Source of the DNA: Rhodospirillales bacterium
Lineage (GTDB): Bacteria > Pseudomonadota > Alphaproteobacteria > Acetobacterales > Acetobacteraceae
Length of the DNA stretch: 39,423 nucleotides
Assembly: GCA_025352665.1 (NCBI GenBank)
Contig: JANXSM010000088.1
Coordinates: forward strand, 1-39,423
Direction: 5' to 3'
Position 1 is the stretch's first letter. Each line of letters starts with the position of its first letter. The position numbers and the translations under genes are program-made. This document shows positions 2,472-10,937 of the stretch, in pieces. Below the pieces are notes generated by a model. It made no database searches. It was not told the DNA's origin and worked only from the letters and a program-made list of their open reading frames with translations.

Positions 2472-3404
2472 CTATCCTGCCTGGTGCACGCCGCCAACGG
2501 CTGCCGAAATGGTGGCCGCCACCGCGCGATAGTCGGCGGCCTTGGGTGTGTTGGGGCGCCAGGCCAGGCCCAGCATACGGCTGGCTCCCTGCTGGCTCAG
2601 CGGCCGGAGCACCACGTCGGTCCCGTGTGTCACGCCCGCCTCCACCGCAATTCGCGGCAGCAACGTGACGCCGAGGCCACCGGCGACCATCTGCACCAGC
2701 GTGTGCAGGCTGGTTGCGGCGAAATCCTGCAACGGATCGTCCGGCCGGTCGCCGAACGCGAAGCCGCAGGCAGACAGCGCCTGATCGCGCAGGCAGTGGC
2801 CGTCCTCGAGCAGCAGCAGCCGCTCGCTGGCCAGTGCCGTGACCGGGATACTCGCGCGCTCGGCAAGTTTATGGCCGGCCGGCAGAGCTGCGATAAAGTC
2901 ATCGCGCAGCACCGGCATCACCTCCGCCCCACGGCAGGCGCAGGGAATGGCCAGCAGCGCCACGTCGATCCGCCCGGCTGTCAGCCCTTCGACCAGGTTC
3001 TCCGTGGTGTCCTCCCGCAGATACAGCCGCAGCAGGGGGAACGCCTGGCGCAGCGCGGGCATCATGCGTGGCAGCAGAAACGGGCCCACGGTCGGGATCA
3101 CGCCAAGCCGCAGCCGCCCGGACAGCGGCGCGCGGTCCGCGTCGGCCGCCTCCACCATCGCCTCCAGCGCCGAGACCGCGACGCGCGCCCGGTCGACCAT
3201 CTCCCGGCCGAGGGCTGTGAAGGCCACTCGCTTCGCCCCCTCGCGGTCGAGCAGCCGCGCATCCATCTGCCGCTCCAGCGCCAGCAGCCCGGCCGACAGG
3301 GTCGATTGGGTGACCGCACAGGCATCCGCGGCGCGGCCGAAATGTTGGTGTTCCGCCAACGCCAGCAGGTAACGAAGCTGCTGCGGAGTGGGCAACGGGG
3401 TCAT
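2472..3404 (-). CDS. oxyR: Peroxide-sensing LysR-type regulator OxyR
   Basis: A 310-residue LysR-type activator. The N-terminal winged helix (about 5-65) starts with [18 protein letters not shown]. The redox pair is present: Cys204 in EDGHCLRD and Cys213 in LSACG, spaced nine residues like E. coli Cys199/Cys208, with the GHCLRDQA context characteristic of OxyR. The start at 3404 gives the normal LysR N-terminus; the open frame continues upstream through katA but is only the shadow of that gene. It is transcribed away from katA, the usual OxyR-catalase layout, so it probably activates katA and regulates itself from the shared spacer. Confidence 0.95.
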
Positions 3405-3431
3405 CGATTGAGCCGATCGTACACGGTAAAA

Positions 3432-3460
3432 ATTATCAATTGGCGCATGGTCGAAAGCAA
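3432..3460 (-). promoter_or_regulatory. Putative oxyR promoter in the oxyR-katA spacer
   Basis: On the minus strand TTGCTT (3460-3455) and GATAAT (3437-3432) are 17 bases apart, and the -10 lies about 28 bases before the oxyR ATG. The 93-bp spacer 3405-3497 must also hold the katA promoter and OxyR sites. The AT-rich core around 3427-3442 is the likely binding area, but I cannot resolve a full OxyR consensus by eye. Confidence 0.5.
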
Positions 3461-3497
3461 ATGCAGTGTCCGCTTTAGCAAGGCAAGGACAATCGCT

Positions 3498-4943
3498 ATG
3501 AGCACGCTGACCACAACCGCAGGCGCTGCGGTTCCCGACAACCAGAACAGCCAGACCGCGGGACCGCGCGGGCCCCTTCTGGCGCAGGATTACCACCTGC
3601 TGGAAAAGCTCGCCCATCAGAACCGCGAGCGTATTCCGGAACGCGTGGTGCATGCCAAGGGCGTCGGCGCCTATGGCAGCTTCACCGTCACCCAGGACAT
3701 CAGCCGTTACAGCAAGGCCGCGGTGTTCGCCGGCATCGGCAAGCAGACGCCGGTGCTCGCCCGCTTCTCCACCGTGGCCGGCGAGCGCGGTGCGGCCGAT
3801 GCCGAGCGCGACGTGCGCGGCTTCGCGCTGAAATTCTACACTGACGGCGGCAACTGGGACATGGTGGGCAACAACACCCCGGTATTCTTCGTCCGCGACC
3901 CGCTGAAATTCCCCGATTTCATCCGCACCCAGAAGCGCCACCCGCGCACCAACCTGCGCTCGCCCACCGCAATGTGGGATTTCTGGTCGCTGTCGCCCGA
4001 AAGCCTGCACCAGGTGACGACGCTGTTCAGCGACCGTGGCCTGCCCACCAGCATGCGCCACATGAACGGCTACGGCAGCCACACCTATTCCATGATCAAT
4101 GCCGCGAACGAGCGGGTGTGGGTGAAATTCCACTTCAAGGTGATGCAGGGCCACCGCCATTGGACCAACGGCGAGGCCGCGCAGGTGGTCGCCCATGACC
4201 GCGAGAGTGCCCAGCGCGATCTGTACGACGCGATCGAGACTGGTGACTTCCCGAAATGGCGCTTCTGCATTCAGGTGATGACGGAAGCGCAGGCGAACAC
4301 TGCGGCCTTCAACCCGTTCGATCTCACCAAGGTCTGGCCGCATGGCGACTTCCCGCTCATCGAGGTCGGCATTCTCGAGCTCAACCGCAATCCCGCGCAT
4401 TATTTTGCCGAGATCGAGCAGGCCGCCTTCTCGCCGTCCAACATCGTGCCCGGCATCGGCTTCTCGCCCGACAAGATGCTGCAGGCGCGCATCTTCGCCT
4501 ATGCCGACGCGCATCGCTACCGGGTCGGCACGCATTACGAGCAGCTGCCGGTGAACCGGCCGCACGTGCCGGTGCATACTTACCACGCCGACGGCGCCAT
4601 GCGCATGGACAGCCCGGTGGGCACCGATGCCTATTACGAGCCCAATTCGTTCGGCGGGCCTACCCAGTCCGGTCAGCACGAGCCGCCGCTGCGGTTGGAG
4701 GGCGACGCCGCCGCCTACGATCACCACGTCGGTAACGACGACTACGGCCAGGTCACCGCCATGTTCGCTTTGTTCGACGAGGACCAGCGTGGCCGCCTCT
4801 ATCACAACGTGGCAGCTTCCATGGACGGCGTGCCGGAGGCGATCATCGAACGCCAGCTTGGCCATTTCGCCCGTGTTCACCCCGCCTATGCCGCTGGCGT
4901 CCGCGCGGCGCTGACCGTGAAGCTGGCCGAGGCAGCCGAATAG
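3498..4943 (+). CDS. katA: Monofunctional haem catalase, small-subunit type
   Basis: A 481-residue catalase, the normal size for small-subunit (clade 3) enzymes that split H2O2 into water and oxygen. Visible residues: catalytic His52 in RVVHAKG, Asn125 in VGNNTPVFF, and the proximal haem ligand Tyr335 in [10 protein letters not shown] with Arg331. The small-subunit length lacks the C-terminal flavodoxin-like domain of large catalases. The ATG at 3498 has AAGGAC eight bases upstream; the frame is open far upstream only because of GC-rich shadow coding. It is divergent from oxyR, which probably controls it. Its TAG stop is the first three bases of palindromic repeat copy A. Confidence 0.97.
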
Positions 4944-7439: not shown

Positions 7440-7476
7440 AAAAAACAAAGAGGGCCCCGGTGCACCGGGACCCTCG
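7440..7476 (-). terminator. Rho-independent terminator, minus strand
   Basis: Hairpin GAGGG-T-CCCGGT / ACCGGG-G-CCCTC (7451-7476) is followed on the minus strand by TTTGTTTTTTT. This is the clearest intrinsic terminator in the window. It closes the moeA block and the small reading frame at 7510-7602. Confidence 0.85.
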
Positions 7477-7509
7477 CATTGTCAGGCGGATCAGAAAGGC
7501 TGACCTGTC

Positions 7510-7602
7510 TTAGACGGCAGCCGCACTCGCGCTTGAAGGAAGGCAAGCCGACGCGGGAACCCAGGTCAAGCCAGTTATCCTGGCCATGAGACAATGAGAC
7601 AC
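7510..7602 (-). CDS. Small ORF (30 aa) with perfect Shine-Dalgarno
   Basis: A GTG-started frame of 30 codons ending TAA, too short for most gene callers. Peptide: VSHCLMARIT, then GLTWVPASAC, then LPSSASAAAV. It has two cysteines (4 and 20), one Trp and an Ala/Ser-rich tail. Before it, 7604-7617 is complementary to the 16S rRNA 3' end over 14 bases, with AGGAGG seven bases from the GTG. An in-frame ATG five codons in is too far from that site to be preferred. An intrinsic terminator follows 34 bases later. It lies 57 bases behind the MoeA fusion in the same direction, with nothing downstream to attenuate. I do not recognise the peptide; it could be a real microprotein, a modified-peptide precursor or a translated leader. 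Confidence 0.55.
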   Translation of the reverse strand: MSHCLMARITGLTWVPASACLPSSASAAAV

Positions 7603-7603
7603 T

Positions 7604-7617
7604 GGATCACCTCCTTT
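7604..7617 (-). promoter_or_regulatory. Maximal Shine-Dalgarno (full anti-16S match)
   Basis: On the minus strand this reads AAAGGAGGTGATCC, the exact complement of the conserved 16S 3' tail (GGATCACCTCCTTT). Natural genes rarely use more than 6-8 of these bases. It decides the GTG start at 7602. The match is one of sequence, not a fragment of a 16S gene: nothing upstream resembles helix 45. Confidence 0.7.
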
Positions 7618-7659
7618 CGGTTGTTGAGATATGTAGGGTGCACGGGTTCTTGCCCGGAT

Positions 7660-9631: not shown

Positions 9632-10627
9632 CTATGCCGCGAACGCGTGCACCGTGACCAGATCGCCGGCCGCAAACCCCTCCCGCGTTGCGGGCACGAG
9701 TACGTAGCCATCGGCCCGCGACAGCGCTGCCGCCCCGCCGGTCTCCACCCCCGGCAGCGGCGTGGCGCCGGCTTCGGACAGGCGCACCAGCACGACGTCG
9801 GTCAGCCCGATGGCGGAGACGATCTTGCCGAGCAGCTTCACCGCCGGGGCCTCCGGCAGCAATCCGAAGCCGGCATGGCCGCGGATCAGCCGCGCCGCCA
9901 GCAGCTCATAGGTCAGGGTGAACCCCAGCCAGTCCCGCGGCAGCCGCAGCACCAGCCGCTTGCGCCGCCGACCGAAGCACACCGCCTCGCCAGCGGGGCG
10001 CAGCGCCAGACCTTGGATTTCCCAGCTGTCGGCCGTGGTTGGGCGGGTGGTTAAGATCACGTCCGCCTGGCTGGCGGGTTTGGTTTCGCAAAGGTCGCGC
10101 GACAGCAACGCCTGCGCGAGGCCGTCGAGCCGGGGATCGATATCGACATGCACGGCCAGGCCGTAGCGCACCACCACCGTGCCGACCTCGAGCTCGCTGA
10201 GCAGCGCCACGTCCTGCGGGCGCAGCCGGTGCCCGGCGGGGAAGATCAGCGCGCCGCGCTTCAGCTGGCTTGCCGCGCGGGCCACGCCTTCGCCGACCGC
10301 CGCCGCCTCCAGCGCGCAGCCGTGTTCCAGCAGATCCGCCGCCAGCACCGCGTCCGTGCCAGGCGGCATCGTGTCGCCGGATGCCACCGGGATGGCTGCG
10401 ACCGGCTGCGGGTTGTAGGGACCGGCGCCTTCGGTGTCTTCGGCGCGCAGGGCGAAACCGTCGAGCGTGGCCCGATCATTCGGCGGCAGCGCATGGCCGG
10501 CACGCAACTCCATCAGCAGCGCGCGGCCGACCGCCCGGCTCGGCGGGACATTGGTGGTGGCGATCGGGAAGGACAGCCGGTCGAGCCAAGTGATCGCTTG
10601 GTCCAGCGAGGCGCGTTCTCCGTTCAA
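9632..10627 (-). CDS. Shortened MoeA-like protein
   Basis: A 331-residue MoeA relative (typical length about 400). The N-terminal region is recognisable: PPNDRATLDGFALRAEDTEG, then MPPGTDAVL and FPAGHRLRPQDVALLSELEV. The MogA-like central domain is eroded: no TGDE and no SGGVSxGDxD motif, and the PGNPVSA loop is replaced by LPRDWLGFTLTYELL. It probably cannot carry out the full molybdotransferase reaction and may act as a scaffold or regulator of its fused neighbour. The start is TTG at 10627, chosen because GGGAGG lies six bases upstream; the longer frame to 10768 has no family similarity. It forms an operon with the MoeA fusion. Confidence 0.75.
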   Translation of the reverse strand: MNGERASLDQAITWLDRLSFPIATTNVPPSRAVGRALLMELRAGHALPPNDRATLDGFALRAEDTEGAGPYNPQPVAAIPVASGDTMPPGTDAVLAADLLEHGCALEAAAVGEGVARAASQLKRGALIFPAGHRLRPQDVALLSELEVGTVVVRYGLAVHVDIDPRLDGLAQALLSRDLCETKPASQADVILTTRPTTADSWEIQGLALRPAGEAVCFGRRRKRLVLRLPRDWLGFTLTYELLAARLIRGHAGFGLLPEAPAVKLLGKIVSAIGLTDVVLVRLSEAGATPLPGVETGGAAALSRADGYVLVPATREGFAAGDLVTVHAFAA

Positions 10628-10664
10628 TGTCGGCCTCCCGGTAAACCTATGCCCATCATGCGGA

Positions 10665-10937
10665 TCAGCCGAAGGCGCCGACCTCATACGCGATCGCGGC
10701 TCCAATCTCGCGCATCGTGGCGAACAGATGCAATATAGGGGAAAAGATCTCGCGATGCTCGCGCGCATAGGCCACGGAGATGGCCCCGATCGCCTGGACA
10801 GGTTGGCGGCGAAGATAAGCTATCCCGCGGTTGCAGGGCCCGCCCGCGCCACCGAAAGCCGCATCGCCCGATTGGCGAAGGTGGCATCGCACAGCTGGGC
10901 GATCAGGGCCGCGATCCGCGTGGCCGTTGGCGAACAT
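10665..10937 (-). pseudogene. Remnant of a transcriptional regulator (IclR-like C-terminus?)
   Basis: The last 50 codons read AIGAISVAYAREHREIFSPI followed by LHLFATMREIGAAIAYEVGA, which looks like the closing strand and helix of a small-molecule-binding regulator domain such as IclR. Upstream the sense switches frame: about 10815-10945 gives IAALIAQLCDATFANRAMRL in another frame ending at a TAG. No helix-turn-helix is left. I therefore read it as a truncated, frame-shifted gene. It lies 37 bases before moeA-like in the same direction and ends on the other side at repeat copy C. The family call is tentative. Confidence 0.35.

Follow-up and report, generated by a model that had tools for sequence, protein, structure and literature searches.

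A CC2171 relative in an alphaproteobacterial genome with an extended Shine-Dalgarno sequence, a predicted internal lock, and a short frame kept without its peptide

What is the function of a gene of only 30 codons that carries an unusually long Shine-Dalgarno (SD) sequence and its own terminator? This question is raised by a short unit in contig JANXSM010000088.1 of a Rhodospirillales bacterium (assembly GCA_025352665.1), of which we analyzed positions 1 to 39,423 (hereafter the window, 39,423 nucleotides in length). The unit lies on the minus strand, and its originally predicted layout of SD, GTG, 30 codons, TAA, and terminator was confirmed. AAAGGAGGTGATCC at 7617-7604 is followed by one A and by the GTG at 7602-7600, leaving a gap of 7 nt between GGAGG and GTG. 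The 30 codons from this GTG encode MSHCLMARITGLTWVPASACLPSSASAAAV and end in a TAA at 7512-7510; both the frame (7510..7602) and its length are kept in relatives. The predicted terminator is also present: its 11-bp stem with a 4-nt loop spans 7475-7450, begins 34 nt past the TAA, and is followed by a T-run to 7440 (7440..7475 in total). Complementarity to the alphaproteobacterial 16S 3' tail, which we take to end in CTGGATCACCTCCTTTC, extends over 17 nt, the first base of the start codon included (GAAAGGAGGTGATCCAG, 7602..7618), and the calculated energy of this duplex is -31.0 kcal/mol. The order on the minus strand is therefore CAACAACC, then the 17-nt GAAAGGAGGTGATCCAG, with the GTG sharing its first base. 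The short 5' leader CAACAACCG (7618..7626), whose last G is part of the extended SD, is conserved in letters: among 183 copies, 90% have A at -8 and 95% have G at -1.

The unit is not a chance arrangement, because DNA matches to it were found in 28 of 60 genomes at E <= 0.001 and the pattern of SD, start codon, and TC occurred in 87 of 200 genomes of the bacterial family, the unit's own genome being counted both times. The reversed pattern gave 0 hits among the matches listed, and a related pattern was present in 46 of 385 genomes of the class, again with the own genome counted. AAGGAGGTGATCC has a single occurrence in the 5.27-Mb genome (reversed control, 0). When the 17-mer was searched in this genome and 19 relatives, the matches were the element alone (own genome and 9 of the 19). 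A 16S 3' end with this tail is present in 211 plasmid or chromid records, including Azospirillum, Ensifer, and Rhizobium, with 209 records at 99% identity or more. As the plus strand of the unit reads CTGGATCACCTCCTTTC, a 16S fragment was considered but rejected, since conservation with covariation extends over the wider element and the frame persists.

To which family does the unit belong? Rfam at its curated gathering thresholds returned 0 matches in the whole window. A relaxed cmscan placed RF01867 (CC2171, "Caulobacter sRNA") at 7626-7451, covering model positions 1-159 of 159 with 72.7 bits and an E-value of 2.9e-15, and the window copy thus falls below the curated cut-off of 75 bits. A model that we built from 75 copies (R1) matched 7445-7628 with E 2.0e-28, the window being within its training set. 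The whole element spans 7440..7626. Because the homology covers the full model and the covarying helices are shared (75 copies), we filed the unit as a below-cut-off CC2171 relative, and on this comparative evidence it is almost certainly a copy of that RNA family. The Rfam cut-off misses most CC2171 matches: among 289 genomes of the class, own genome counted, the RF01867 model matched 66 at E <= 0.001 and 10 above the cut-off. Model R1 matched 104 of the 289, part of its strong matches being its own training copies; many weaker ones start at model position 20-33 and are probably terminator-only, and a hand count gave about 80 genomes with full-length matches at E < 1e-6, two of them shorter than 50 nt.

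Named hosts among the matches listed (at least 120 stretches) included Methylobacterium, Bosea, Microvirga, Brevundimonas, Roseiarcus, Roseomonas, and Acidisoma. On 14 control genomes, the RF01867 model matched Caulobacter vibrioides alone. A plasmid search with the element returned two Methylobacterium records of about 40 nt each, and a search outside the class but within the phylum gave seven weak genomes (best E 3.7e-6). Among 79 genomes belonging to a single order outside the class, two carry TAAGGAGGTGATCATATGTCGAG with a short frame, a shared GCTATGAGTGAGGG, and a terminator (L365:1501, plus strand; L366, minus strand), units that are perhaps a CC2171 relative in another proteobacterial class. 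A typical copy (L113) comes from a metagenome bin whose title, Ramlibacter, belongs to the Betaproteobacteria, which would reflect mis-binning or transfer, and one genome (G047) holds two different copies of the element (L221 and L222). In the accessible parts of two publications, the Rfam 2025 paper names CC2171 among the families improved by one covarying pair, and an intergenic-sRNA study of Mesorhizobium huakuii has a CC2171 match in its table.

For the family comparisons, we kept 254 of 264 distinct candidate sites, excluding nine cut at locus ends and one (L186) with no stop within 50 codons. Counts for the P1 helix, frame, hydropathy, and spacer use 184 representatives, and those for the P2 helix use 158 copies with a confident terminator. 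Most copies were fetched by SD and start-codon patterns, and the invariance of SD and start is thus partly by construction. The alignment (A1) contains the window copy and 74 of 137 eligible representatives; it favored copies that do not begin with MSHC (44 of 45 included, L314 out), and 30 of the 92 MSHC copies entered by random draw. Among 56 loci obtained via the Rfam model, L316, L321, L323, and L324 have no SD-like match and were not counted, and L315 has its SD in a shifted register. Further loci, including those of the order outside the class, were inspected and enter none of the counts.

Within the unit, the SD and start codon can pair with an anti-SD mimic located inside the frame, and we refer to this helix as P1. 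In the window, its 5' strand is GATCCAG (7602..7608; the 3' part of the SD with the first base of the start codon) and its 3' strand is the in-frame CTGGGTT (7558..7564; Trp-Val codons). In the commonest type of copy the mimic reads CUGGAUC followed by a GCCUC-like run, and in other types GGAGCA(G/A)CCUUC. In 170 of 184 copies, the segment that best complements the SD begins upstream of the stop codon; in the other 14, it begins at the stop or past it. Across the 184 copies, the duplex of SD and interior is more stable than with dinucleotide-shuffled interiors (mean z -1.35, against -0.19 for a reversed SD). The two spacer letters and the start codon differ between copies, and the mimic changes along with them. 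The mean duplex energy, observed at -16.94 kcal/mol, weakened to -16.31 (sd 0.079) when spacer and start letters were exchanged among copies and to -16.58 (sd 0.062) when the spacer letters alone were exchanged, and 0 of 500 permutations reached the observed value in either case; kinship is not removed in these shuffling and exchange controls, although the representatives were thinned for similarity. Where the spacer departs from CA (37 copies), the own spacer pairs better than CA would in 26, worse in 10, and equally in 1. Matched exchanges of spacer and mimic were seen: GATCCAG/CTGGATC, GATCCGG/CCGGATC, GATCCTG/CAGGATC, GATCCCG/CGGGATC, and CCGATG/CATCGG. On the MAFFT alignment of 75 copies, which by reading is one column off in the GGAGCA type, both-sided changes occur at four of the seven P1 pairs, and the fraction of paired cells is 72%.

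The window copy itself shows a weak P1 signal (z -0.54; calculated -15.4 kcal/mol). In its minimum-energy fold, computed with no pseudoknots, the partner of the mimic is GACAGGUC of the 3' UTR and not the SD, and a third, competing partner is therefore possible. By the same fold, ACCTGG of the mimic region (7561-7566) can pair with CAGGTC of the 3' UTR (7502-7507, minus strand). A possible second anti-SD segment, weak alone, is GCCTTCCTTC (7535..7544), which falls within the latter half of this copy's lowest-energy SD duplex.

A further helix, P2, joins codons 2-6 to the strand just 5' of the terminator. In the window, CATTGTC (7590..7596; codons 3-5) faces GACAATG (7477..7483), one base 5' of the terminator stem. 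The mean P2 energy of 158 copies is -11.79 with their own partners vs -9.54 with exchanged ones (sd 0.185), and that of the 52 copies not beginning TCTCATTG is -10.69 vs -7.70 (sd 0.316); P2 is poor in some copies, such as L305 (-1.9). Changes on both sides occur in all 7 P2 pairs and in all 11 pairs of the terminator stem (75 copies each). Taking the three helices together, 83.7% of cells pair in the 75 copies, vs 68.5% after shuffling and 31-51% when strands are slid by 1-3 columns. These comparisons make it very probable that P1 and P2 exist in the family. The linear order is SD, P2 5' strand, mimic, and P2 3' strand, and P1 and P2 therefore cross, which would make them either a pseudoknot or two exclusive states. 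Because the SD can pair within the RNA, the very high initiation suggested for this unit in the original prediction is uncertain.

Does selection act on the frame, on the peptide, or on both? All but one of the 184 copies reach their first frame-0 stop after 17-37 codons (sd 3.1), vs an sd of 24 in the other frames; the refutation proposed earlier, loss of the frame in relatives that keep SD and terminator, is not borne out. Of 112 copies with the CTGG[AG] anchor, 104 have it in frame, most often at 35, 38, or 41 nt, and the spacing from start to mimic shifts by threes. By reading, L068 and L081 are real among the eight exceptions, and in the others the anchor is located outside the frame or the copy is of the alternative mimic type. 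GTG, ATG, or TTG is found in each listed copy of the BLAST-fetched loci, for which no start codon was required, and 181 of 184 copies have TCN as their second codon, its third base being variable. Yet differences in 59 independent nearest pairs are spread almost evenly over codon positions 1/2/3 (142/157/141), and the synonymous fraction is 0.322 vs 0.294 expected at random; in homologous genes flanking 48 of the same pairs, the counts are 1997/1350/5275 and the fraction is 0.785.

Since frame and length are kept and the codon-position counts are flat, translation looks selected and the peptide does not. We consider it highly likely, at somewhat lower confidence than the helices, that the frame of about 24 codons is selected and that its amino acids are not, although the flat counts could hide weak amino-acid selection beneath the RNA constraint. 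The suggestion of a short frame under selection thus stands, and that of a functional microprotein is not supported: the synonymous comparison once proposed as a check, now run, does not favor the peptide. Past Met-Ser, the peptides of different lineages have little in common, and MSHC and Trp, recurrent in the commonest type, coincide with the pairing strands of P2 and P1, respectively. A Pfam search with the peptide returned 0 matches. A modified-peptide precursor, also suggested earlier, fares no better, with no peptide conserved between lineages and with MoeA, the one neighboring enzyme compared, matched at few loci (below). A peptide product is disfavored by these comparisons. We also observed a 56-codon frame behind the same extended SD, with a start that resembles a signal peptide by eye, in L186:1501 (plus strand) and L342 (minus strand, SD at 511).

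The surroundings of the unit suggest that it stands alone. In the window, the gene 5' of it encodes MoeA fused to a PBP-like domain, as first read, and the gene on its other side encodes a convergent EAL-domain protein, in agreement with the earlier claim of an autonomous unit that lacks a same-strand gene directly downstream. The MoeA-PBP neighbor is thus real, but the link to molybdenum-cofactor genes drawn from it was rejected: tblastn with the window MoeA found a match near the element in 8 of 324 loci, of which five are the window itself, two come from one same-genus genome, and one is L147. Using a simple ORF caller on 159 copies, we found the upstream gene on the same strand in 77, on the opposite strand in 77, and not called in 5; downstream, the gene was on the opposite strand in 89, on the same strand in 55, and not called in 15. 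As judged from these neighborhoods, the CC2171 unit is a stand-alone gene spread over the Alphaproteobacteria with no moeA linkage. Elsewhere in the window, by reading, a second MoeA-like frame lies directly upstream of the fusion (9632-10768, minus strand), and 2472-4943 holds two frames, one catalase-like (plus strand) and one LysR/OxyR-like (minus strand).

A consensus promoter scan of the window copy found none. Across 183 copies, promoter-like motifs cluster 5' of the SD, TTGNN at -52 to -47 and TANNNT at -27/-26, and from this clustering transcripts probably start about 12 nt 5' of the SD. The family promoter signal and the terminator would fit a discrete small RNA.

How might such an RNA work? 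The mimic starts 34 nt 5' of the stop codon in 54 of 105 copies and 25-37 nt from it in 102 of 105; this distance is independent of that from start to mimic (r -0.12), and the distance from stop to P2 is variable (median 40 nt, 83 copies). A ribosome with a stop codon in its A site covers about 15-17 preceding nucleotides, and the mimic would therefore be freed at about the time the ribosome reaches the stop. Such re-emergence is not universal, because 14 of the 184 copies have late segments, including an 18-codon lineage (L304 and L310; L335, L336, and L338 by eye) with its clear anti-SD run past the stop, and because L331 and L332 have a 14-codon frame.

We propose that a 30S subunit competes with P1 through the 16S tail (calculated -31.0 vs -15.4 kcal/mol in the window copy) and that its initiation would open both helices. 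In the most frequent arrangement, the ribosome would uncover the mimic again near the stop, and the lock would close once more. The RNA would then be in one of two states, locked or translated, as set by the supply of free initiating ribosomes, and the output would be the RNA itself, through its stability or through strands freed in one state. A trans action is proposed for this output, since the unit has no regulated gene joined to it. The two-state reading of free ribosomes and the RNA output are the last two steps, and these we infer. Taken jointly, 30S-lock competition, re-locking, and RNA output in trans are tentative, lying between doubtful and nearly even in likelihood. We give slightly less than an even chance to the proposition that the window unit is a stand-alone self-locking mini-mRNA that functions through its translation state, probably as an RNA sensor of initiating ribosomes. 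The broader proposition, that CC2171 RNAs in general are stand-alone translation sensors with an SD and a 16S-tail copy, translated for translation's sake, re-locking, and trans-acting, is appreciably more doubtful.

How do other explanations compare? If the unit were a true small-protein gene, a peptide of 20-30 amino acids would be the product and the structure would tune its synthesis. The kept frame, start codon, and length, the TCN at codon 2 in 181 of 184 copies, and the recurrent MSHC and Trp of the commonest type speak for this, but the flat 142/157/141 counts, the synonymous fraction of 0.322 (0.294 expected, 0.785 in flanking genes), the divergence of lineages past Met-Ser, the position of MSHC in P2 and Trp in P1, and the lack of a Pfam match speak against it, and we regard it as rather improbable. 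A classical base-pairing sRNA, in which the mimic or a P2 strand binds target mRNAs, the SD acts as a lock over the seed, and translation is incidental, is unlikely but carries some weight: the unit is a stand-alone gene with a U-run terminator, and Rhizobiales sRNAs with CCUCCUCCC loops are known (PMC3927594, in the part of the article available). Steps of three between start and mimic and the narrow position of the stop would, however, be unexpected if the frame were incidental.

The large calculated difference between the pairing of the SD with the 16S tail (-31.0 kcal/mol) and with the mimic (-15.4 kcal/mol) in the window copy would also suit a decoy, whose 17-nt SD binds free 30S subunits, or sRNAs bearing an anti-SD, and buffers initiation. 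Such a decoy would require no fixed frame and no lock, and AAGGAGGTGATCC occurs once in the genome, which leaves this explanation distinctly improbable. A short frame, alternative pairings, and a terminator are likewise what a leader-peptide attenuator of a downstream gene would have; the next gene in the window is convergent and that of relatives is opposite in 89 of 144 copies with a gene called (same strand in 55), and on this gene orientation we rejected a cis attenuator as extremely improbable. A type I toxin was also rejected, since the mean hydropathy of the peptides is 0.11 and exceeds 1 in 4 of 184. The self-locking mini-mRNA remains our preferred reading.

The unit resembles RF01867 in its full-length match, SD core, P2, and terminator; it differs in that the library entry is an sRNA whose printed consensus structure lacks the helix between SD and anti-SD mimic. 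We know of no ligand or antitoxin for CC2171 units. Type I toxin mRNAs and preQ1 riboswitch pseudoknots, as described in the parts of the sources available, also hide an SD by long-range or pseudoknot pairing, whereas CC2171 peptides are not hydrophobic like those of the toxins. In the uORF leader of DUF1127 in Sinorhizobium meliloti (PMC12218461, accessible text), which has 29 codons and for which masking at low ribosome availability was proposed, translation of part of the frame sets the accessibility of an element inside it; there, however, the gene is controlled in cis, whereas the CC2171 unit has no attached gene. The rnTrpL/peTrpL RNA of S. meliloti is likewise a small, translated, trans-acting alphaproteobacterial RNA, but according to the portions of the literature available its peptide is functional and it originated as an attenuator. 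Ribosome profiling in Caulobacter found two formerly predicted ncRNAs to be translated and other intergenic ncRNA regions not (Schrader 2014, PMC4117421, accessible part). A literature search covering parts of texts did not find the frame, internal anti-SD, or function of CC2171 described.

P1, P2, and selection for a frame without its peptide were not met in our literature searches and come from comparing 184 diverse copies, and the proposed reading of CC2171 gives exact, testable predictions. CC2171 is listed as an sRNA, yet comparison alone suggests a translated mini-mRNA with selection on frame and length and none on amino acids. Such a pattern is characteristic of regulation through translation itself, which is usual in leaders of downstream genes and is found here with no gene attached and across the Alphaproteobacteria.
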